A stretch of 35,694 nt of DNA, taken from positions 1-35,694 of IMG/VR virus record IMGVR_UViG_3300031578_004767; one strand, written 5' to 3'. This DNA comes from a virus. Each line of letters begins with the position of its first letter. Within the stretch, counting starts at the first letter, position 1. Positions 16,737 to 29,892 of this stretch are shown here, piece after piece. The notes under the pieces are model-generated. The model searched no databases. It saw only the letters and a program-made list of their open reading frames with translations, and was not told the DNA's origin. The translations under genes were made by a program, and so were the position numbers.

Positions 16737-17166
16737 CGTGTATTTCTCCTTTGTCAAAGTTAACATTTATTTTCATAAAACCATCGACTGGTTTTGTTTC
16801 GTAATCTTTTTGATTAGGTCTAAAGTGAGATTCATCAAAATAATAAACTTCAAGTCTATTAATTAAAACATTTAATAGACAATTTATATCCGTAACTTCC
16901 GCACCATACTCCTCATCTCTTAGACAAAGTTCATCTGTATTCAAATCAGCGTTTGGGTGACTTCCGAAAATTCTAACTTCACTTAGTTTGTTGTTGAATC
17001 TTTTAATAATAAGACCTTCTAAATGTAATTTCTCATGAATTTTTGTTATTGTTTTCGGAACTCCATCATCTATAATAAATTTAGGAATTATTTTTCCAAC
17101 GAAAATATCATAATCAATTGATACATTTTCTTTACTTCCTGGTATATATAAATGCTTATGTTCCAT
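16699..17166 (-). CDS. E2-like ubiquitin-conjugating protein with HPN-x8-Cys
   Basis: A 155-residue protein that reads like a compact E2/UBC fold. A helix and strands lead to EVRIFGSHPN, and HPN falls at residues 70-72. DELCLRD follows, placing a candidate active-site Cys at 81. After it come helical DINCLLNVLINRLEV and YYFDESHFRP, matching the post-cysteine helix and the (N/D)P(D/E)-type segment of E2 enzymes. Eukaryotic E2s have HPN-x7-Cys-Leu, so the spacing differs by one. It would accept the modifier from an E1 as a thioester. The ATG at 17166 overlaps the ThiF-like stop as TAATG. Family membership is inferred from motif and context. Confidence 0.7.
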   Translation of the reverse strand: MEHKHLYIPGSKENVSIDYDIFVGKIIPKFIIDDGVPKTITKIHEKLHLEGLIIKRFNNKLSEVRIFGSHPNADLNTDELCLRDEEYGAEVTDINCLLNVLINRLEVYYFDESHFRPNQKDYETKPVDGFMKINVNFDKGEIHDAEAPFRQLYPR

Positions 17167-18065
17167 TATGCTCCTCCTTCTGTTTGTAATATATGAATTT
17201 CATTGTCTATTAGAACTGGTAAAAATATTAAACTTTTACTTTTATTCTTTATAGCATTTTTAAGAACTTCGATAACGTCCTCGGGGTGTTTTAAACTGTT
17301 TTGAGGAATAATCTGATACGTTGTTTTTGCAACCCTTGGTATTTCAAAAACTTCCCTGGCTATCGAACCTCTTTCTTGAACTGCTACTTTAAGAGGAGCT
17401 TTTTTATTTCTATTTAATATAGGTTGTATAACTTCCTCTAATTTTGATATTCTATTTATATTATCATCTGTATCATATATCAAGTCTGGATAAGATTTTG
17501 ATTCTTTAATACTTTTTAACATTACTGATTGAATTATGTCAATATCAATATATTTAATAGATTGTCCTTTTAATAATTCTTCAATAACATTACTACATAT
17601 TAAATCAGTTGCATAAGAAGCTGCTCTACTAATTTCATGTTTTGATAGTTGTATAACATATTCGCCTTTTGGTCTTGTTTGATCTTCTAGTTTCTTTTGA
17701 AAATCGAGTATTAGAAACTTTCCATTGATAAACATCTTCATATCAATATTCAAGTCTCTTTTGCCAAATATATTTCGGCAATCAATTATTAAGTCTGATT
17801 CTGGGAGATCGGTAATACCTTCAATGTAAAACTCTGCTCTTGGTTGAATCTCTATATTATAATTTAAAAGATTACGATATAGTACATGAACTTTTGGTTC
17901 ATCAATATCAATAGGTTGAAATATTCCTATTTCTGTATCTTTTTTATCAACTATATCCTTATCTATTAATATAAGTTTACTAACCTTAGAACATTCTACC
18001 AGATGTTTACAAAGGTGTCCTCCCAACGTTCCGGTTCCAATTACAGTTACAGTGCTGAGATTCAA
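17166..18065 (-). CDS. Divergent ThiF/E1-like protein lacking the canonical RQ motif
   Basis: A 299-residue protein. The N-terminus VTVIGTGTLGGHL (7-19), LILID ending at Asp35, and DLIIDCRN around Asp95 form a ThiF-type Rossmann fold. The N-x2-RQ motif that holds ATP in active E1 enzymes is replaced by TEIGIFQ. No clear catalytic Cys motif is present. ISRAASYATDLICSNVIEEL resembles the helical second half of ThiF proteins. It may be a non-adenylating partner, like the inactive half of heterodimeric eukaryotic E1s. The start is TTG 18065, with AAAGGAG ten bases upstream. The final codons GGA-GGA-GCA double as the ribosome binding site of the E2-like gene. Confidence 0.7.
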   Translation of the reverse strand: MNLSTVTVIGTGTLGGHLCKHLVECSKVSKLILIDKDIVDKKDTEIGIFQPIDIDEPKVHVLYRNLLNYNIEIQPRAEFYIEGITDLPESDLIIDCRNIFGKRDLNIDMKMFINGKFLILDFQKKLEDQTRPKGEYVIQLSKHEISRAASYATDLICSNVIEELLKGQSIKYIDIDIIQSVMLKSIKESKSYPDLIYDTDDNINRISKLEEVIQPILNRNKKAPLKVAVQERGSIAREVFEIPRVAKTTYQIIPQNSLKHPEDVIEVLKNAIKNKSKSLIFLPVLIDNEIHILQTEGGA

Positions 18066-18092
18066 AGGGTTAATTCTCCTTTCGGAAGGATT

Positions 18093-18120
18093 GGGTGGGG
18101 ACCCAATCGAATCCCCACCC
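18093..18120 (-). terminator. GC-rich hairpin directly after the ubiquitin-like gene
   Basis: GGGTGGGG at 18093-18100 and CCCCACCC at 18113-18120 form a perfect 8-bp stem with a 12-base loop. An alternative shorter fold, TTGGGT with ACCCAA (18091-18106), overlaps it. It begins 13 bases after the modifier stop codon and lies just before the ribosome binding site of the ThiF-like gene. No T-run follows, so partial termination, processing or mRNA protection are all possible. Confidence 0.55.
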
Positions 18121-18133
18121 GCCAGGCTCCTAT

Positions 18134-18583
18134 TTAGCAGCCTTTACGACCGGAAGGTTTCATGAACTCAAGAGAATCCCCCACTTTCAATTCATAATCG
18201 CCGGAAACTTCTTTTCCATTAACCAGACCTGTGGAGAGTTTGTCCACGTTCAACACCTCACGCAGGAACTCACCGACTTCGGCAACACTTTTCCCTTCAA
18301 CAGGAAAGGCGCCGGTACTGGCACCACATGATACACGGATTGTGGTTGTGGTTTTTTGACCGAAAGCAGCAGACGGTTTGGTCATAACGCTGTGGCCATC
18401 AAATGCAATACCTTCCAGCTTATCCGAAACATCCGGATTTCCATCGGCCAGCAGGATAGCGTCGATAACGACGTCTTTACGTTTTTTGGTCAATCCCGGC
18501 AGTCCCAGGTTGTCCACACAAAGACGACGAAGCTCTTTAAGATTCATTCCTTCTAAATTTTCACGAGTATATTCATTAGCCAT
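18134..18583 (-). CDS. Ubiquitin-like modifier fused to an N-terminal SAP-like domain
   Basis: A 149-residue two-part protein. Residues 12-46 (GMNLKELRRLCVDNLGLPG onward) match the helix-loop-helix SAP/HeH pattern, which in other proteins binds DNA. Residues 78-149 are a beta-grasp ubiquitin-like domain of MoaD/ThiS/PRTRC-C type: strand TTIRVSC, helix SVAEVGEFLREVL, then LVNGKEVSGDYELKVGDSL and EFMKPSGRKGC. The tail ends Gly-Cys, so removal of one residue would expose Gly148, recalling UFM1, whose precursor ends Val-Gly-Ser-Cys. The gene is about 50% GC against roughly 30% nearby and has a strong AAGGAGA site, suggesting high expression. Neighbouring E1, E2-like and JAMM genes support a protein-modifier role. 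Confidence 0.82.
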   Translation of the reverse strand: MANEYTRENLEGMNLKELRRLCVDNLGLPGLTKKRKDVVIDAILLADGNPDVSDKLEGIAFDGHSVMTKPSAAFGQKTTTTIRVSCGASTGAFPVEGKSVAEVGEFLREVLNVDKLSTGLVNGKEVSGDYELKVGDSLEFMKPSGRKGC

Positions 18584-18630
18584 TTTAAAATTCTCCTTAC
18601 AAAGTTTAGTTGTTGTTCACGTTCGGCTTA

Positions 18631-19314
18631 TTACTTTAAAGCCCTTGATTGCGCAATCACGGACATCTGTTTCATATCAAAATAAATTTCGGATGCCTCT
18701 ATTTTATTACTGATTACTACGTTGTAAAACACGCCACACATGAGTGTAGCTACCCATACATTTACGAAATATAATTGAGGATCAGACTGAGCTAGCTCTT
18801 CGCAGCTCATTTCCTCAGGTAATTTATCTACGGGATCTGCAATCTCCGGATGATAAGCGCACAAGTCAGGTGTTAAATCTTTACCCCCTTCTCTGACATA
18901 TAGTTGTACGTTACCGTCTGTAAATTCGTTCCCACCAGAAATTAAAGTAACATTATTTAAGTTTTTGCAGTAATTGGATGTGATCATTCTGGTTTTGTGA
19001 TTGTCTACGCATAAGAACACAATATCACCATTTAAAATAACATTGGTGATGTTTGCGTCATTTATATACGAAGGAAAGAAATCTAAATTCAGCCTTGGGA
19101 ATTGGTCTTCTATATCGCCAGCTTTAATCTCAGCTTTATTTCCCATTTGTGTAAATTCTTGTCTTTCGTAATTTTTAGTTTCATATGTATCCCCGTCCAC
19201 TAATGTTAATGTTGAATCTATATCTTTTGCATAGTTTAAGAATCGAGCAATTCTTCCACATAATACTGATCCGACTCCACCGAGTCCAATGATTTTTATA
19301 GATATTTTTTTCAT
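18631..19314 (-). CDS. ThiF/E1-like adenylating enzyme
   Basis: A 227-residue E1-like protein retaining the adenylation site. It has GLGGVGS (10-16), LVDGD with Asp40 and Asp42, NYERQEF with Asn48 and Arg51, Lys60, and CVDN with Asp104. EEMSCEELAQSDPQLYFVN places a candidate thioester Cys at 171, in a pattern close to the SC segment of PRTRC-type ThiF proteins. It would activate the C-terminal glycine of the modifier encoded just downstream. ATG 19314 is chosen because it overlaps the JAMM stop as ATGA and has CGGGAG upstream. A role in thiamine or molybdopterin synthesis is less likely, since no such pathway genes are nearby. Confidence 0.88.
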   Translation of the reverse strand: MKKISIKIIGLGGVGSVLCGRIARFLNYAKDIDSTLTLVDGDTYETKNYERQEFTQMGNKAEIKAGDIEDQFPRLNLDFFPSYINDANITNVILNGDIVFLCVDNHKTRMITSNYCKNLNNVTLISGGNEFTDGNVQLYVREGGKDLTPDLCAYHPEIADPVDKLPEEMSCEELAQSDPQLYFVNVWVATLMCGVFYNVVISNKIEASEIYFDMKQMSVIAQSRALK

Positions 19315-21086
19315 CGTTTTCTCCCGAATTTTTCCATCATCCATTGTAGAGGATTCATATTGGATCTTATCATCTCATCCATATGATGTAGATCTTGCCC
19401 CGGTATCATATTAGCAGGGTTTGGTGGTTCTTCAGCTGCCTGGTAATTGGCTGCTTCTTCGATTGCAACTTGCTCGACTTCGTTTGCGTCTCCTAATAAG
19501 TCCCTGTTTTTTGCCCCCGAGTATTCCACTAGAGCAATTTTGCAGAAAGGGCAGTTGTTATCCTTGATCAATTCTTTTGTAAATTGACTTCCGCATGATT
19601 TGCAATTATAGTGTTCTCCCTTTTTTTCATAGTTAAGGGATTGATCAGGCATTAATAATGTTCCACAGAATGGACATGAGCCACCATCTTTGCCAGTTTC
19701 TAAAAAACTAACATCAAATGTGCTAACACAACTTACACATTTAATTTGCCCTGGTTCATCATCATCGACGGTAAAATCATTTTCCTCAATTAGAGTCATA
19801 TGCTCATCTGATTTACATGATGGGCAAACCATATTACCTTTGATTTCATCTTCATCATCATAGTCAAATGTAACAAGAACATTACATTTTTCACACACAT
19901 ATGATTCTTTATCATCGTCTAGAATTGAGTTCTCTTCAATAGTTCCGTCGTTTTGATCAACTAATAGTTCAGCAACATATTCCACTGCCTTTTCTTTAAA
20001 TGCGCATGTTTTGCAAGGCATATATCTAGAAGGTGTCACTTCTGTAATAACGGGACCTTGATCATGTGCAGGAAATTTAATAGGATCGACTTTTACTCCC
20101 ACATTCTGTGGTGGACGTTTTACATCTTTTTGAACTCCGGCTGCAAGGGCGCCTGGTTTTGTTCGGTCTTTCCATGCATCTGCATCAAAGTTTCTACCCC
20201 AGTTGTTATTATATTTGGGTGCGATCCATTTACCACTTTCCCAATGACCAGCTTGATAATTTCCTCTCCAGCCGCCATATCCGCTCCATGCTGTACCATA
20301 TGAATAAGTAGGTTTGTATTCAACTGTATCCATCCATGATTTCGGACATTGGGCTTTAACATTTTTCTCGCTTGTTATAACATATCGTCTGTCATATTTA
20401 CGATATGATCGGAAAGTGGTTGCTGCATATTTTGTTGTTTCAACCATCTTTCCATTCTCCCATTTATATACTCTGGAGGTTGGAACTTTTTCAACTTCAT
20501 CAATCTCATGATCTAATCTAATTCCTTTTAAATATTCTTCTGGAGGAACTATTGTTCTGTGACCATTTGATACGATTGATGCTGAAATACTTATAAGTTC
20601 GGAATTGAGATTTCCGAATGTGATATGGAGCCCATCAAAGGACTCTTCATCACCTTGATCCGTCCCGGAATGAAACGCAGACATACTTGAATGACTGTGA
20701 ATGTCACCGATCATTGTCCACCCGTCTATAACAATTGATCTATTATAATCGAGCGAGGCAGGACCGACCTTCTGCGCTGGCGGGATAACTTTATATTTTC
20801 GTGTTTGTTCATTGAAGAATAATAATACGATTGCTTCTGACCTATGTTCCTTCTGAACTTCCCGGAAGAAATTAGCAATCTTAGCTATCAATCTTGCAGG
20901 TATCTCTGGAATGTGCATTTTAGCTGTTGCTTCAACACTCTCCAGTATTGATATGGTTTTGACTGGAGATAGACTTTCCATAATCCCTAATCTCTTTTTA
21001 ATAAATACTCCTTCTTTTCCTACAACATAATAAATATCATCTTTTGGCATCTCTTGCGTGCCGTCAGCTATCACTATTGGGAACAT
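19311..21086 (-). CDS. JAMM/JAB metalloprotease with C-terminal zinc knuckles
   Basis: A 591-residue protein. Residues 60-180 form a JAB domain with Glu84 (RSEAIVLLFF) and the exact JAMM signature His130-x-His132-x7-Ser140-x2-Asp143 in DIHSHSSMSAFHSGTD. The deubiquitinase-type chemistry is therefore intact. Residues 260-300 are rich in Tyr, Trp and Gly. Zinc-ribbon pairs follow: Cys358/361, Cys398/401 with 421/424, Cys450/453 with 471/474, and Cys495/498 with 512/515. It likely trims the modifier precursor or removes modifier from targets, with the ribbons binding substrate, modifier or nucleic acid. It overlaps the upstream large gene (TAATG) and the downstream E1 gene (ATGA). Confidence 0.9.
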   Translation of the reverse strand: MFPIVIADGTQEMPKDDIYYVVGKEGVFIKKRLGIMESLSPVKTISILESVEATAKMHIPEIPARLIAKIANFFREVQKEHRSEAIVLLFFNEQTRKYKVIPPAQKVGPASLDYNRSIVIDGWTMIGDIHSHSSMSAFHSGTDQGDEESFDGLHITFGNLNSELISISASIVSNGHRTIVPPEEYLKGIRLDHEIDEVEKVPTSRVYKWENGKMVETTKYAATTFRSYRKYDRRYVITSEKNVKAQCPKSWMDTVEYKPTYSYGTAWSGYGGWRGNYQAGHWESGKWIAPKYNNNWGRNFDADAWKDRTKPGALAAGVQKDVKRPPQNVGVKVDPIKFPAHDQGPVITEVTPSRYMPCKTCAFKEKAVEYVAELLVDQNDGTIEENSILDDDKESYVCEKCNVLVTFDYDDEDEIKGNMVCPSCKSDEHMTLIEENDFTVDDDEPGQIKCVSCVSTFDVSFLETGKDGGSCPFCGTLLMPDQSLNYEKKGEHYNCKSCGSQFTKELIKDNNCPFCKIALVEYSGAKNRDLLGDANEVEQVAIEEAANYQAAEEPPNPANMIPGQDLHHMDEMIRSNMNPLQWMMEKFGRKR

Positions 21087-23725
21087 TAAATTAGACTCCT
21101 TGGGTCAGTTAAATAGAGAAATGCAGATCCTTCAACAGGAACAAATCCTCCATTAAAGTTAGCGTTTGCAGGAACAAACCCATCAATATCTTGTTGCGAT
21201 TTACTGATTCTCGGATTGGGTATACAGTCGAGTACACATTCATCCTGAAATGATTTATCAGCGGTATACGATTCCAATCCTCCATTTGAATAATAACTTA
21301 ATGGATGATATTTCAGAGATCTAGAATCATTTGTTTGAATCATTAAATAACCATGATCTTTTGATGAATCCGCATAAGATGGTATAACAACATCCCCTGC
21401 TTGAAATTTAATTTTTTTTGGATCTAATGGAGTATGATCCTTAGTTTTCCAGACAGCTGAACTCATTGGAATATGTTTGAATTTCTCCATTACATCTTGA
21501 TACCATAAAGTACAACCGTTTGAACATAATACCAATGGATTTGGACCGTCAACAATAATACCAATAACAATATTAACGTCTTTCATTGGAAAGTTTGAAA
21601 TATTACCATCAGTGGCGATAATCTTTGTTCCTGAACTTAACTCTTCAAACTTAGTTACAATTTTTCTAATATATCCAATCCGAACAATTTGATTAGATAC
21701 AAAGATTTCTTGTGATAGAGTGCTATTTTTATCCATTAATATAAATGATAAGTTTGTATAATCTCCTTTATCTTCAACCTTGAACCCTTGGATTCTTTTA
21801 ATATTTAAAACGCTTAAAGGATCTTTCCAGTTAGCGACAACAACAAGATCACCTATCTTATGTTCCAATAATCCAAAGTGAGTATCAATCTGAAATTTCT
21901 CATTGTTTATAATGAGATTTTTAATATCACTTCTGTTGAGAGTTTCTATTCTGGTATTAGCAAAATGTATATATCCTGATGGGGTTTTGAAAACCTTTTT
22001 TCTTTCTTCATGTTCTTCCATTGGTAATGATATTCTTCGAATCATTCTACCTATTGAAATCATTGAAGGATTAATACACTCAGAACCTTTTTTTACGGCA
22101 AGAGGTGGAAATAATTTTCTTGAAGATTCTCCAAGATTATTTATCGGAATATTTAAATGCCTTCCGGTACGATCTGTGGAGAGAAATTTGAATATCAATT
22201 TGTTTTCTTGCCCAACATCAATGCCATCATAAGAGCATCTTTCTACTTGATGGATCATCGTGTTTCTATTATTTCCTGAGTGTGAATAATAATATTCAGA
22301 ACTTTTCACCAAATCCATCCCATATATATTAGGTTTATCTTGATTAAATAATTGTGCGTTTTCTGGTAGATTTGCAGCTATATAATATTGATTTCCTAAC
22401 CTAACTTCTGGGCGACCATCGAGACCTTTTCTAATATAAAATACTCTTCGATATAATTCTGCTCCAGCTTTATTTGTGTATTTAATAATATCATCACTTT
22501 TAATAACTAGCCCATTATTCATCTTTATACTGGGTAGATATTTTTGGGCTCCTATTCTCTTTTGGAAATAAGATTTTGATATATTATTCAATTTATAATT
22601 GAACAGTTTCCCTTTATATGAAAGGCGAACTTTTTGTGGTTCTTGCCCACTGACTCCTATAAAAGAAACAATATGATATTGTTTTGATTTTGATTCATTG
22701 GTAAATGAGTCTCCTACCTCTGCTCTTAATATATCATTTAGATAAATACTATTAGAAACATCATAATATACAGGATCTACTTTTTTTCTAATTTTTCCGG
22801 TTGTGATTTCCCCAATTTTTACAGGAGATGTAAAAGCTGAAATAAAATCATGGTATATAGTGTCTGGGTTTCTAGCTTTAGAGTGATCACCCATGTATTG
22901 TTTTACGTCTTCGATCAACTGGAAAATATTTTTATTATGGTTTAGCCAATCAACTCGGTATATAAACATTGGATCTAATCTTGATAAGTATTGCCACTCT
23001 AAAAAGTTTGAGATGCCGGCAACACTATCATACGCTTTGATATTGTATGTATAATCTGCATTAAATACACTTGTCCAGAATACATTAATTGTTGCATCAA
23101 CAGCTTCGGCAGCTGTATTATATGTGTCTTTATTAAGGCGACTTCCAAAACATATAGCTTGGTTATCAGAGATGTTAGATAATGGCATTTTTAAAAGGTA
23201 ATCTGATAAACCAATCATAGGATTAACTCTTAAAAATGAGTAACCCGCTTGGATTTGATGACCTCTGTTTATATACATTAGAAATATGACATAAGGAAAT
23301 GCAAGATTCAGTTTATAATAAGATCCTAATTGTGATGACTCCACTCTTTCCTGTGTTAACCATCCTTCTAGTCCGTATTCTTTTAATAGATTTTTAGACT
23401 TTATTTCTGAATACATTAAATCAAAGTTTAATGCCATCGCTACAGTTCTAAATTGGGGTTGTTGTTCGATAACATAGAGATAATCCCCATTACCAATTGG
23501 TTCAACATATCTGCAACCGGACGGAAGGATTTTTGGAGCTTGTAATGTCATCTCAGAATATTTTCTGAGGTAATCCATAGTAGGTAATGTTTTAATTCTT
23601 TTGGTGGGCAGCGCCTGTGTATGATCTTTTCTTGCGACGCTGTCTTTTTGTTCTGCTAATAATAGCGATATGTAACTTGAGTTCATTCGGATATCATAAT
23701 CTTCAAAAAGATCTTTTTCGTCCAT
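21086..23725 (-). CDS. Large cassette protein with N-terminal PRTRC-B/Prok-E2_D-like domain
   Basis: An 879-residue protein, the first and largest gene of the cassette in transcription order. Residues 140-230 contain FPYVIFLMYI and then MPLSNISDNQAICFGSRLN, with a conserved Cys192. That P-x-x-N-x5-7-C-x-G arrangement is what I recall from PRTRC-B/Prok-E2_D proteins, classed as divergent E2-like. The same domain recurs at the right edge of the window with Cys157 aligned. The remaining 600 residues are beta-rich without a recognisable family, and end in a Gly/Asn/Pro-rich tail (FVPANANFNGGFVPVEG). It could be a second E2-like enzyme, a scaffold or a ligase. The start ATG 23725 has GAGGGG upstream. 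Confidence 0.65.
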   Translation of the reverse strand: MDEKDLFEDYDIRMNSSYISLLLAEQKDSVARKDHTQALPTKRIKTLPTMDYLRKYSEMTLQAPKILPSGCRYVEPIGNGDYLYVIEQQPQFRTVAMALNFDLMYSEIKSKNLLKEYGLEGWLTQERVESSQLGSYYKLNLAFPYVIFLMYINRGHQIQAGYSFLRVNPMIGLSDYLLKMPLSNISDNQAICFGSRLNKDTYNTAAEAVDATINVFWTSVFNADYTYNIKAYDSVAGISNFLEWQYLSRLDPMFIYRVDWLNHNKNIFQLIEDVKQYMGDHSKARNPDTIYHDFISAFTSPVKIGEITTGKIRKKVDPVYYDVSNSIYLNDILRAEVGDSFTNESKSKQYHIVSFIGVSGQEPQKVRLSYKGKLFNYKLNNISKSYFQKRIGAQKYLPSIKMNNGLVIKSDDIIKYTNKAGAELYRRVFYIRKGLDGRPEVRLGNQYYIAANLPENAQLFNQDKPNIYGMDLVKSSEYYYSHSGNNRNTMIHQVERCSYDGIDVGQENKLIFKFLSTDRTGRHLNIPINNLGESSRKLFPPLAVKKGSECINPSMISIGRMIRRISLPMEEHEERKKVFKTPSGYIHFANTRIETLNRSDIKNLIINNEKFQIDTHFGLLEHKIGDLVVVANWKDPLSVLNIKRIQGFKVEDKGDYTNLSFILMDKNSTLSQEIFVSNQIVRIGYIRKIVTKFEELSSGTKIIATDGNISNFPMKDVNIVIGIIVDGPNPLVLCSNGCTLWYQDVMEKFKHIPMSSAVWKTKDHTPLDPKKIKFQAGDVVIPSYADSSKDHGYLMIQTNDSRSLKYHPLSYYSNGGLESYTADKSFQDECVLDCIPNPRISKSQQDIDGFVPANANFNGGFVPVEGSAFLYLTDPRSLI

Positions 23726-23728
23726 TCG

Positions 23729-24103
23729 TTATTCCCCTCTATAAAATTTTACAAGTTTAGCAAATTCAATCATTATCTTTTTTGCGGATCTTCCTTCGAT
23801 TCTGTGTGCCTGATACCTTTTCGGCATTTGAGCAACGTCTCTTATATCAGAAATTCTTATTGAATAATAGTTACAAACCCATTCATCCATAGGATCTCTT
23901 TCTAATGACAAGAATGATAATTCTGCTCTGCCTTTGGGAGGAACTGGTAACGCAAGAAATATGTTTGCTCCTTGTGGAACAACTTTAGGATGTGAAATAT
24001 TACCCTGTTCTTCTTTCTTTATCCTTTCACATATTTCTTTGATCTCCTCTGCCATCTCATTCGATTTTACTTCTTTTAAAATATCGTTTAAAATTTTTCC
24101 CAT
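23729..24103 (-). CDS. Hypothetical protein (124 aa)
   Basis: A 124-residue protein ending three bases before the large cassette gene starts. The first 40 residues are a charged helix. The middle reads GANIFLALPVPPKGRAELSFLSL, and the C-terminal part is basic (MPKRYQAHRIEGRSAKKIMIEF). No family is recognised. The tight spacing suggests it belongs to the cassette operon, where it could be a small adaptor. GGAG precedes ATG 24103. Confidence 0.55.
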   Translation of the reverse strand: MGKILNDILKEVKSNEMAEEIKEICERIKKEEQGNISHPKVVPQGANIFLALPVPPKGRAELSFLSLERDPMDEWVCNYYSIRISDIRDVAQMPKRYQAHRIEGRSAKKIMIEFAKLVKFYRGE

Positions 24104-24428: not shown

Positions 24429-25451
24429 TTACGTCCTCCTGTCGAGGTGAATTAAGTCTTCACTCCCTTGGTTGTTTCTCTCAATATGCAGACTCATTAA
24501 TAAACATGTATGATTACAACCTTGGCAATGGACTTGTTTATCTTTTGCGATTGCTTTTTCAGCAATAAATGATACCTTTCCATCTGAGTCAATTAGGTTT
24601 GGTATCTTTACTAATTTTGGAGTGTGAGTTCCTCTTATCCGTAAACATAATCTTAGAGTTCCGTCAGCATCAACCGTTACATTATGCACCCCTTTCTCCA
24701 ATTCACAATCCATACTTGAAGGTAAAACGTGCCAGATCATCGGAAGAAGAACTTTTTTCATATGAACATTTAAATCTCTATCTTGTAAAAGTTGAAACAT
24801 ATCAGCTAATTCCGGAGTCTGATTGACTAATAAACTTTTATCTTTTATATCTGAAAAATCATAATACGGACTTTTCGCTATATCAATAAATGTTATATCG
24901 CTGCTGATACCATGACTTGTCAGTATCTCAACAAGTCTATATAGATATTTTACATTATGCTTCATGACTGTTATTTCAGCAACAACATCATCAACACGAT
25001 CCTTCAATGCTAGAAGGTTTTCAAATCCTGCAATACTCTTAATGACTCTATCATCTGTATGTTCCTCGTTAAATGATGGGTCAACAGATGCGGTAAACCC
25101 CTTTACGAACTCGACACGTTCAAATAACCTGTCGATCAATGGGCGAATCTCATTCGTGTTGTTTGATATTATTGTATAGTGTATATCATTCTTGTTACAG
25201 TAGTTTATAATATCAGGCAGATCTTTTCTTAAAAGCGGCTCACCGCCATAAAAGATGTGAAAGCAATCAGGATTATGCATCTTGAATCTTTCCAAACCTT
25301 TTAAAATATAGTCTGTACTCATCTCATTTTTTATATAATGACTCATAGGAGGGTAATCTTTTGGCATATCAATATAATTTTTTACAATTGCACAATATTC
25401 ACAACTCAAGTTGCATTTTCTTGTGAGTAACCAGTTTACTATTCTAATCAT
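24429..25451 (-). CDS. Radical SAM enzyme with SPASM-like C-terminal cluster
   Basis: A 340-residue protein. CNLSCEYC (Cys13, Cys17, Cys20) is the CxxxCxxC motif binding the catalytic 4Fe-4S cluster. YGGEPLLR (68-75) is the GGE SAM-contact motif. A C-terminal Cys set (249, 269, 309, 312, 316), with DADGTLRLC between the first two, matches the SPASM/twitch auxiliary-cluster layout of peptide- and protein-modifying enzymes. This argues against QueE, which is shorter and lacks that extension. Candidate substrates include nearby small proteins. GGGAGG precedes ATG 25451. The substrate is unknown. Confidence 0.85.
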   Translation of the reverse strand: MIRIVNWLLTRKCNLSCEYCAIVKNYIDMPKDYPPMSHYIKNEMSTDYILKGLERFKMHNPDCFHIFYGGEPLLRKDLPDIINYCNKNDIHYTIISNNTNEIRPLIDRLFERVEFVKGFTASVDPSFNEEHTDDRVIKSIAGFENLLALKDRVDDVVAEITVMKHNVKYLYRLVEILTSHGISSDITFIDIAKSPYYDFSDIKDKSLLVNQTPELADMFQLLQDRDLNVHMKKVLLPMIWHVLPSSMDCELEKGVHNVTVDADGTLRLCLRIRGTHTPKLVKIPNLIDSDGKVSFIAEKAIAKDKQVHCQGCNHTCLLMSLHIERNNQGSEDLIHLDRRT

Positions 25452-27656: not shown

Positions 27657-28672
27657 TGTACTACCTCGCATCTGTCAATGATTTCAAGACCAACGTCTAA
27701 ATATTCTTGACGCTCGTCTAATGGAACTTCTTTTATTTCAATATATCTTTCGAGTTTCTCTTTTTGTGACATTGTGCTTGTGATGCCTCTATCTGTTACA
27801 TCGACTTCTGTTTTATCTACAACGTTGAACTCTTCAAATCCAGTTACATCAATTTTATCTCTTTTAATAATCTTAACATAATGTCCTTCTTCTCTTGCTT
27901 TTTTGGCAATCTCTAGAATTTCATCTTTGTTTTTATTGGTTAAATCAACCTCGATAAATTTTCGATAACCTTTTGTTGCAACACTTTCGACTTCCAATGT
28001 CTTAGAATCTACGATTAAAAATCGTTTGTTGTCCCCCTTTTCTCCCCAATCTAATTGAATTGGAGAACCAACATAATACATTGAAGTATTGCCTTCAATG
28101 ATCTCTTGTGGTTTGTGATAATGCCCTAATAGAATAAGTTTGTATTTGGATCTCAAATCTGACATACTTATACTTGAAATAAGACTTATTCCTGAATTTA
28201 AAATTCCTTCACTCAACCCAAAATGTGAAACAAGTATATCTGCTTCACCTTCTTTAACCTGTTTAACAACTTTAGTTGAATATGGAACGAATAATATATT
28301 TTCAAATGTTTGTGGTTCTTTACTTATCCAATTAACATTTGGAACTTCTTCCAATGATCTTAATGCGGAAACAGCATCTTCACCTTTTCCCGATAAATCA
28401 TGGTTACCATCAATTACCCAAAATTTCATTTTAGGAGAATCACTGAAAAACTGTAACATGACATTTTGAGCTAATGCATGAATAATTGATTTTCCATGAA
28501 GAATATCTCCACCTATAACAACATTATCTATATCATTTTTTTGACAATAGTAAACCATAGAATATAGAGAGTTAGTTAATCCGTGTAACCTTTCTGGAAG
28601 ACCTGTTGATTCTACAATTGGATCCTGTCCGTATTTGGATAAATGTATATCTGCTGTAAATGCAAATTTCAT
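27653..28672 (-). CDS. 47: Recombination endonuclease subunit gp47-like (SbcD/Mre11 family)
   Basis: A 339-residue metallophosphoesterase. Family motifs are FTADIH (Asp8, His10), VIGGDILHGK, DGNHDLSGKG, VSHFG and LLGHYHKP, all intact. It would be the exonuclease/endonuclease partner of the gp46-like ATPase. It overlaps the FVTNSSS-type gene upstream (ATGA at 28669-28672) and gp46 downstream in the same way. The GGAGGGG ribosome binding site is supplied by the last codons of the upstream gene. Confidence 0.95.
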   Translation of the reverse strand: MKFAFTADIHLSKYGQDPIVESTGLPERLHGLTNSLYSMVYYCQKNDIDNVVIGGDILHGKSIIHALAQNVMLQFFSDSPKMKFWVIDGNHDLSGKGEDAVSALRSLEEVPNVNWISKEPQTFENILFVPYSTKVVKQVKEGEADILVSHFGLSEGILNSGISLISSISMSDLRSKYKLILLGHYHKPQEIIEGNTSMYYVGSPIQLDWGEKGDNKRFLIVDSKTLEVESVATKGYRKFIEVDLTNKNKDEILEIAKKAREEGHYVKIIKRDKIDVTGFEEFNVVDKTEVDVTDRGITSTMSQKEKLERYIEIKEVPLDERQEYLDVGLEIIDRCEVVQ

Positions 28673-29067
28673 CTTTCCCCTCCATATAAAGTATAAATGT
28701 TTAATAATCTTTCCATTCTCTTTTTATCTAACGGAATTATACAATCAGGCCCGCTAACCCCACCTTCGATGTCTTTTATAATCAATCCTTCATCATCAAG
28801 AATCTTTCCAACTGTTGAATATATTATACCTGGAATAGTTTCATTTTGATATCTATCTAAAGTATCTCCGGATTTTAAATAATCCATCGCTTCATTGAAG
28901 TATTCAATTATATCCTTTTTCGTATAATCTTCATATCCGGAATTCCATTTTTTCTGTTCTTCATATGCATCCATAATTTTTTTGATTGTAATTGGATATG
29001 AATCCGGAACATAAACAAGCGTTATTGTTGATGAACTGTTCGTTACAAATCCTGTTTTTATTTTCAT
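28669..29067 (-). CDS. FVTNSSS-signature protein 1 (132 aa)
   Basis: A 132-residue protein beginning MKIKTGFVTNSSSTITLVYV. The first 13 residues are nearly identical to those of two other genes nearby, while the rest differs. The body is charged and mixed, with no known domain (KKDIIEYFNEAMDYLKSGD and a final Gly/Asp-rich segment). A similar F-V-(S/T)-N-S-S-S start occurs in many phage and bacterial small proteins, and its meaning is not established to my knowledge. GAGGTGA precedes ATG 29067. It lies between gp47 and the second copy. Confidence 0.72.
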   Translation of the reverse strand: MKIKTGFVTNSSSTITLVYVPDSYPITIKKIMDAYEEQKKWNSGYEDYTKKDIIEYFNEAMDYLKSGDTLDRYQNETIPGIIYSTVGKILDDEGLIIKDIEGGVSGPDCIIPLDKKRMERLLNIYTLYGGER

Positions 29068-29071
29068 TATA

Positions 29072-29419
29072 TCACCTCAAGTATTCACAAAATCTCCAAG
29101 TGAAGTTTTTTGATGATCCTCCATCTCTCAGAATGTAATCGAAAACCTGTCCAATCAATGTTCCTTGTTCATCACCGAAAACAACATATTCAGTTTTACC
29201 TGGAATAAAATCTTGATTGTTTTTCAAAGCAGAATCAAGAAGATTTTCTTGTGTATATTTCGGTTCATCCTTATACCAATCATATTCTGCTTTGAATTGC
29301 TCAATCAATTGGGGGTTTTCTTCAACGAAAGACCATAAAGTTTTCATTGTTCCGCTTATGTTTGTGATTATAAACGCAGTTGAACTGCTATTTGTTACAA
29401 AGTCAGTTTTCATTTTCAT
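29072..29419 (-). CDS. FVTNSSS-signature protein 2 (115 aa)
   Basis: A 115-residue protein beginning MKMKTDFVTNSSSTAFII, then diverging into an acidic body (EENPQLIEQFKAEYDWYKDE) and a segment TEYVVFGDEQGTLIGQVF. It shares only the N-terminal signature with its two relatives, and the codons for the shared residues differ, so the constraint is on the peptide. AGAGGAAA lies upstream of ATG 29419. The start overlaps the small cysteine-rich gene. The function is unknown. Confidence 0.72.
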   Translation of the reverse strand: MKMKTDFVTNSSSTAFIITNISGTMKTLWSFVEENPQLIEQFKAEYDWYKDEPKYTQENLLDSALKNNQDFIPGKTEYVVFGDEQGTLIGQVFDYILRDGGSSKNFTWRFCEYLR

Positions 29420-29612
29420 TTTGTATTTCCTCTGTTTTTTCTTGGATATAATTCGCTAAGATATCACACGCTGTATCATCAAGAAATGATTTACTACATA
29501 ACGGTTGAACTAAACATATTTTACACGGCGATCCTTCTAACTTAGTCATATAATAAATAAAATGCGTAGATTTTTTTGTATTTTCAATTGGAACTTTCCA
29601 TATGAATTTCAT
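29403..29612 (-). CDS. Small cysteine-rich protein (69 aa)
   Basis: A 69-residue protein with CKICLVQPLCSKSFLDDTAC, giving four cysteines in C-x2-C-x6-C-x10-C spacing that could bind zinc or an iron-sulfur cluster. The tail is acidic (EKTEEIQNENEN). AGGAG is nine bases before ATG 29612. The gene overlaps both neighbouring FVTNSSS genes by 17-29 bases, so it is probably cotranslated with them. No function can be assigned. Confidence 0.62.
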   Translation of the reverse strand: MKFIWKVPIENTKKSTHFIYYMTKLEGSPCKICLVQPLCSKSFLDDTACDILANYIQEKTEEIQNENEN

Positions 29613-29892
29613 TGTTATTAACTCCTATTGCAATTAAGAATCCGAACATATCAAAATTGTCCATTGCTGTATATCCTAACATTGAATGATCCGTTTCTTC
29701 TATATGCCATGCATCATATTTACCGAGATATCCAAAATCATAATGAGGATCGTCGGGATTCTGTTTCATTAACCAACTAGCTGTCTCGATATGGTCACGA
29801 ATCATTTTCATTTGAAAGTCTGTTAAAGCTGACTTAGGAATCATAAATGAAGAAGATGAACTATTTGTTACAAAGTCAATTTTTATTTTCAT
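29584..29892 (-). CDS. FVTNSSS-signature protein 3 (102 aa)
   Basis: A 102-residue protein starting MKIKIDFVTNSSSSSFMI, the third gene here with this start. The body (DFQMKMIRDHIETASWLMKQ, then DAWHIEETDHSMLGYTAMD) is unrelated to copies 1 and 2. It overlaps the helicase stop as ATGA. The upstream ribosome binding site is weak (GGGGTGG), so translation is likely coupled to the helicase gene. Confidence 0.7.
   Translation of the reverse strand: MKIKIDFVTNSSSSSFMIPKSALTDFQMKMIRDHIETASWLMKQNPDDPHYDFGYLGKYDAWHIEETDHSMLGYTAMDNFDMFGFLIAIGVNNNEIHMESSN

Follow-up and report, generated by a model that had tools for sequence, protein, structure and literature searches.

SPASM radical-SAM enzymes modify C-terminal FxSxx peptides in conflict operons of a related kind, and a metallopeptidase releases the FxSxx motif, which stands at the C-terminus (Kaur et al. 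2020, PMC7159879). No published idea closer to the locus described here was found. In the actinobacterial FxSxx-COOH/FxsB systems, as here, a SPASM radical SAM enzyme lies beside small, fast-diverging proteins that share a short motif of an aromatic and a hydroxyl residue, with a link to immune-type NTPases; the motif is C-terminal there, whereas it is N-terminal here (residues 1-18). The RiPP maturases SuiB and SkfB are the closest in predicted fold to the enzyme that accompanies the shared N-terminal peptide (the tag), with Z scores of 24.8 and 23.4, and have the same SPASM architecture. Their substrates are short precursor peptides, but the tag stands at the front of entire proteins (about 70-700 aa) in which no core peptide is evident, and the sequence identity of the enzyme to SuiB and SkfB is 13-18%. 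The short leader and core with leader removal of RiPP precursors were not found in the tagged proteins, the median length of which is 136 aa. anSME, too, is a SPASM radical SAM enzyme whose target is a short motif in a complete protein, but its motif is internal and belongs to one enzyme class, while the tag is N-terminal and heads more than 160 body clusters.

The Avs2 (AVAST) STAND NTPases are related to the locus through a large neighbour of the tagged genes in many cellular loci, which matches the PADLOC Avs2 models (E down to 5.5e-82). To our knowledge, Avs2 is a single gene with no radical SAM or tagged partner. The literature available without subscription was searched for the motif, and for the enzyme together with Avs2 or Pseudotevenvirus, and no description was found; a first reading of the DNA from its letters alone (the sequence-only reading) had likewise known of no established role for the shared start.

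Sequences and searches

The DNA analyzed, referred to as the window, is a 35.7-kb phage fragment (35,694 nucleotides) of the IMG/VR virus record IMGVR_UViG_3300031578_004767. A tblastn search with a 22-residue tag peptide returned no match, probably owing to BLAST masking of the serine run, and tagged genes were collected in its place by DNA patterns, which fix several residues. Viral contigs and one-genome-per-species contigs were scanned, with one pattern scan each, yielding at least 237 stretches. For profile comparisons, each window protein was first aligned with its own relatives. A tag-blind sample consisted of 786 genomes from outside the seed set (392 Clostridia and 394 Bacteroidia), in which the enzyme was called at more than 370 bits.

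Tagged genes of the window

The tagged genes and the open reading frame between them are the following:

28669-29067, minus strand, gene 1 (tagged protein 1), 132 aa, N-terminal peptide MKIKTGFVTNSSSTITL
29014..29067, minus strand, tag of gene 1, 18 residues, degenerate past residue 14, MKIKTGFVTNSSSTITLV
29072-29419, minus strand, gene 2 (tagged protein 2), 115 aa, conserved body FGDE.GTLIG.VFDY.LR.GG.S..F.W
29366..29419, minus strand, tag of gene 2, 18 residues, MKMKTDFVTNSSSTAFII
29403..29612, minus strand, Cys-rich open reading frame between tagged genes 2 and 3, 69 aa, untagged
29584-29892, minus strand, gene 3 (tagged protein 3), 102 aa, conserved body ..W.I.E...I.G.T[SA]MDNFDM..FL..IGV
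29839..29892, minus strand, tag of gene 3, 18 residues, MKIKIDFVTNSSSSSFMI

The near-identical start of three genes that the sequence-only reading had reported was confirmed by the open reading frames and by pattern matches; the genes are adjacent on the minus strand, at the coordinates it gave. The FVTNSSS pattern occurred in exactly three places in the window, the starts of genes 1, 2, and 3, and the reversed pattern, used as a control over the whole window, gave 0 matches. Scans of family libraries with the three proteins gave no confident family. The same scans gave no family match for the Cys-rich open reading frame, which overlaps the ends of tagged genes 2 and 3.

The window tags have the consensus MK(I)[KR]x[D/G]F[V/I][T/S]NSSS[S/T]xF[I/V][I/V], which fades beyond about residue 18. 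In the wider collection, the consensus was M K [I/V/L/F] [K/R] x [D/G] [F/Y] [V/I] [T/S] N S S S [S/T/A/V] [S/N/A/C] [F/Y] [I/V] [I/V], and conservation was high through residue 18 and dropped at residue 19 (366 unique proteins of the first scan). The shared start thus exists as proposed, but it extends over about 18 residues, not 13, before conservation collapses. In the proteins collected, the tag always occupied residues 1-18, i.e., the exact gene start, and tandem arrays were frequent.

Bacillota, Bacteroidota, Pseudomonadota, archaea, and phages all have tagged proteins; among the phages are Lw1 of E. coli and the RB43/RB16 group. Among the matches listed (237 stretches) were Bacillota, Bacteroidota, Deltaproteobacteria, other bacterial phyla, Lokiarchaeota, Methanosarcina, and a Thermoplasmatales bin. 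The GFVSNSSS form was also matched in viral contigs, for which the matches listed are a lower bound. Phage Lw1 carries two tagged proteins and Vibrio phage D479 several. The Thermoplasmatales bin (CSMAG_1140, L146) has several tagged genes and an SbcC-family gene akin to that of the window (cluster 10); although filed as archaeal, the contig probably comes from a window-type virus that was binned together with an archaeon.

Association with the phrog_7293 enzyme family

The neighbours of the tagged genes were tabulated by clustering all open reading frames of the 237 stretches listed. One radical-SAM/SPASM family (about 350 aa) dominated, being present in 151 of the 237; the runner-up, a phage structural protein by appearance, was in 39. 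The enzyme and its nearest tagged gene were on the same strand in 153 of 154 cases, with a median gap of 9 bp and a gap of <200 bp in 118. The PHROG family matched by this enzyme is phrog_7293, labelled 'unknown function'. Where no enzyme was near the tag, the genome often encoded a phrog_7293 enzyme elsewhere: in 23 of 31 such cellular genomes, and on 10 of the 19 tag-bearing virus contigs examined, among them the window-phage relatives G002, G005, G006, and G008. The 35.7-kb window fragment itself contains none. Relatives with longer contigs have their tags where the window has them, in the helicase-SbcDC region.

In the tag-blind sample, the enzyme was called in 6 of 392 Clostridia, and a tagged gene was within about 2 kb in all six. 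The strict tag pattern matched two of the 392 genomes, and in both the enzyme was present with the tag next to it (hypergeometric p ~5e-5 over the 786 genomes). The other four enzyme-positive genomes were read directly and had tag variants (GTG start, Y for F at position 7, Y at position 3) that the search pattern did not match; enzyme-negative genomes were searched by the patterns alone, so that variants could be missed there. Weaker radical SAM matches in the Clostridia (91-121 bits; all others were at or below 121) had a tag beside them in 0 of 4 cases. The 394 Bacteroidia genomes, also outside the seed set, had neither the enzyme nor a pattern-matched tag.

In cultured phages, 173 records had relatives of the Lw1 enzyme (gp161, a distant homologue of the partner enzyme) and 175 had relatives of the tagged gp116; the organism tallies of the two were near-identical (Klebsiella, Enterobacter, Cronobacter, Citrobacter, Escherichia, RB43, and others). 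Less in keeping with the association, viral contigs selected by the enzyme had a tag within 5 kb in only 49 of 78 cases, two false hits having been removed, and the remaining contigs examined were phages with the enzyme in the structural region. Also against the association, two large tag-bearing virus contigs (202 and 152 kb) and eight tag-bearing cellular drafts were found in which no phrog_7293 enzyme was detected; incompleteness of the drafts or contigs could be the reason. Overall, the tag sits beside the phrog_7293 family, or in the same genome, far beyond chance.

Cellular operons with tagged genes

The largest cellular family of tagged proteins was adjoined by an immune-type STAND NTPase family in 22 of 27 stretches. 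Five of these NTPase neighbours matched the PADLOC Avs2 models (E 9e-16 to 5.5e-82), and the N-termini of the NTPases varied, with, for example, a weak trypsin-like match. Immune-like operons in which an Avs2-like or SMEK STAND NTPase is combined with the radical SAM gene, a tagged gene, and, in most cases, a small untagged protein of which the tagged one is a paralogue were seen at L126, L144, L161, L165, L175, and L234, and on plasmid pAt (L383) of Agrobacterium, where the four genes have the same order. Further cellular neighbours were MoxR-like, VWA-like, and TIR plus leucine-rich-repeat proteins, and PADLOC gave weak pVip matches. No protease genes were prominent among the commonest neighbour families of tagged genes.

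Partner enzyme and the proposed role of the tag

Cysteines 64, 68, 71, 256, 278, 296, and 338 were invariant in all 55 aligned enzymes, and C64, C68, and C71 form the radical SAM cluster motif (55/55). The canonical CX3CX2C spacing was present in 83 of 154 members, and many cellular members have an expanded one (e.g., about CX7CX6C); examples are L237:4604-5656, L229, and L231. A SPASM/twitch domain was indicated by PF13186, above cutoff in two of six members and weaker in the others, by the four extra invariant cysteines, and by the fold. Among the NCBIfam matches listed for six members (for two of them, the best 25), no equivalog cutoff was reached and the FxsB model did not appear. The viperin model NF038283 scored 20-43 bits against a cutoff of 180, and there was no specific match to prokaryotic viperins.

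The enzyme was modelled with a pLDDT of 95.8. The nearest solved structures after SuiB and SkfB were PqqE (Z 21.1) and anSME (Z 20.3); these four proteins fill the first nine rows of the ranking, followed by viperins (Z ~19-20) and other RiPP enzymes. The predicted fold is thus closest to peptide-modifying SPASM enzymes, a shared fold being no proof of function.

From the sequence comparisons and the structural model, the shared peptide is probably a substrate tag for the dedicated radical-SAM/SPASM enzyme of the phrog_7293 family. The basic start (K2, K/R4) would dock the tag on the enzyme, a 5'-deoxyadenosyl radical would modify residues within F7-x-T/S9-N10-S11-S12-S13, and the modified tag would be retained on the mature protein. 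A single enzyme would serve several tagged proteins, which may be unrelated small effectors or regulators with a common modified end. In cells, the tagged proteins are often parts of Avs2-like immune operons, and in phages they may act in host takeover or counter-defence. For the phage of the window, the enzyme gene is presumed to lie outside the sequenced fragment.

The favoured chemistry, by analogy, would be either a crosslink between the side chains of Phe7 and Thr/Ser9 or a serine oxidation as in anSME. In FxsB-type F-x-S peptides, Phe is crosslinked to the side chain of Ser, and anSME oxidises Ser or Cys. Both candidate chemistries remove two hydrogens.

The first alternative is that the tag is a docking peptide only, by which unrelated cargo proteins are brought to or held with the enzyme, with the chemistry occurring elsewhere, on another protein, a small molecule, or a nucleotide; viperins act on a nucleotide. 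The association of tag and enzyme would fit this equally, and the viperin-like structural neighbours, the weak pVip matches, and the Avs2-like NTPases among the cellular neighbours of the enzyme are in its favour. We nevertheless consider it unlikely, as the near-invariance of T9-N10-S11-S12-S13 exceeds the usual need of docking and peptide-modifying enzymes outrank viperins as structural matches.

If the tag is a modification substrate, a broader proposal may be put forward tentatively, although the chances are somewhat against it: a general post-translational tagging system, in which a single radical-SAM/SPASM enzyme puts one and the same permanent mark on the shared N-terminal peptide of proteins that are otherwise unrelated. 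Cells would use it in NLR-like immune operons, and large phages on whole sets of proteins for host takeover or counter-defence, with phage and host sharing one chemical code in their conflict. The substrate-tag reading itself would tie phrog_7293 and at least 164 clusters of tagged proteins, nearly all unassigned, in bacteria, archaea, and viruses to a single likely reaction. On this reading, a protein modification not yet described is expected in immune-type operons and in the laboratory phages RB43, RB16, and Lw1, so that it could be tested in E. coli at once. If true, many 'hypothetical proteins' would gain a common biochemical handle.

Radical SAM gene of the window

A radical SAM gene of another family lies in the same gene run as a ubiquitin-like (Ubl) cassette:

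24429..25451, minus strand, radical SAM (fam13/A1), family other than phrog_7293

The window gene order (helicase, tagged genes, SbcD, SbcC, radical SAM, two small genes, E2, JAB, E1, Ubl-like) is common to about ten phages. The region 17166-24103 (minus strand) appears, judged from homologues in phage L095, to be a phage ubiquitin-like conjugation cassette, with two ThiF/E1-like genes, a small Rho_N/ThiS-like gene, a JAB-like and a Prok-E2_D-like gene, and two small genes; the L095 homologues match Prok-E2_D, Prok-JAB, and ThiF.

This radical SAM was first assumed to be the partner of the tag and was demoted by the enzyme-centred searches. That it acts on the three window tags is quite improbable, even though it shares strand and gene run with them. 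Among 49 viral relatives found by it, a tag was near in about 28 and adjacent or overlapping in 17, but none was within 6 kb in 20, and several contigs of >100 kb had the window-type radical SAM with no tag found anywhere. The two large contigs mentioned above, with a tag and no phrog_7293 enzyme found, do carry the window family; on the other hand, four phages related to that of the window carry both radical-SAM families. The gene directly precedes the Ubl-cassette genes fam18, fam19, and fam20 in the gene maps of window-type phages that were examined. It is therefore apparently part of the ubiquitin-like cassette and probably not the partner of the tag. The proposal of a modification tag on different proteins is well supported, as is a radical-SAM/SPASM enzyme as its partner, but the nearby gene to which the sequence-only reading had pointed belongs to the other family.

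Tag as a separable module

The three window genes could be ordinary paralogues of one very diverged superfamily, with the tag as its conserved first strand, and the gene 3 model offers some ground for this: tag residues 13-19 make up the beta strand with which the body begins. Residues 1-10 were disordered in this model (pLDDT 43), which predicts a flexible conserved start for the tag; the C-terminal end was also low and the remainder confident. The predicted fold of gene 3 had no match below E 0.001 in the PDB or among viral structures.

In the profile comparisons, with the tag included, gene 3 matched genes 1 and 2 at 98% profile probability over just the 18-19 tag columns, and with the tag removed the probability fell to 0.1-0.4%. 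The bodies of genes 1 and 2, tag removed, gave a weak match (23% over 63 columns), and distant kinship between these two is possible. The statement that the bodies are unrelated therefore holds for gene 3, for which the full-length homology that would make the three proteins ordinary paralogues was not found.

Across the collection, at least 696 distinct complete tagged proteins fell into at least 164 BLAST body clusters, 112 of them singletons; as these are BLAST-level clusters that include singletons, truly different folds are fewer than 164. Nearly all clusters were without known function. When 104 cluster representatives were aligned, the consensus was MKIRxDFVTNSSSSSF, followed by zero conserved positions. 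Pfam recognised four BRCT proteins, one leucine-rich repeat, a few marginal matches, and almost nothing else among the bodies, which range from 70 to over 600 aa. A few tagged proteins match phage NAD-dependent DNA ligase families, and the BRCT matches fall in four tagged body clusters. phrog_7397 was rejected as a specific family for the window proteins, since it matches tagged proteins in general (54 of 104).

Tagged and untagged paralogues stand side by side in Avs2-like bacterial operons (94.9% over 104 columns), and among relatives of the gene 1 body at least one (L254/L290) lacks the tag. The same body thus occurs with and without the tag, which is detachable: it is an N-terminal module that can be separated from the many unrelated proteins carrying it. 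Ordinary paralogy was rejected on the profile comparisons and the tagged/untagged pairs, and we regard it as very improbable.

Selection on the tag peptide

Spread of the start as a piece of DNA (ribosome site and start codons) by recombination, with no function of the peptide, would fit the constant position at the exact gene start and the tandem arrays, but it does not predict the co-occurrence with one enzyme and is contradicted by the codon data, leaving it a negligible prospect. The differing codons that the sequence-only reading had quoted for the shared residues were correct in the window genes, and across 451 tagged proteins all eight TCN/AGY class combinations were present at S11, S12, and S13. 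T9 to S12 are nearly invariant even though the serine codon classes switch. Selection therefore acts on the peptide, as had been proposed. Residues 6 and 9 also covary (D-T 411 and G-S 247 vs. G-T 21 and D-S 3); as two patterns were used, each with one position free, this coupling was not made by the search alone.
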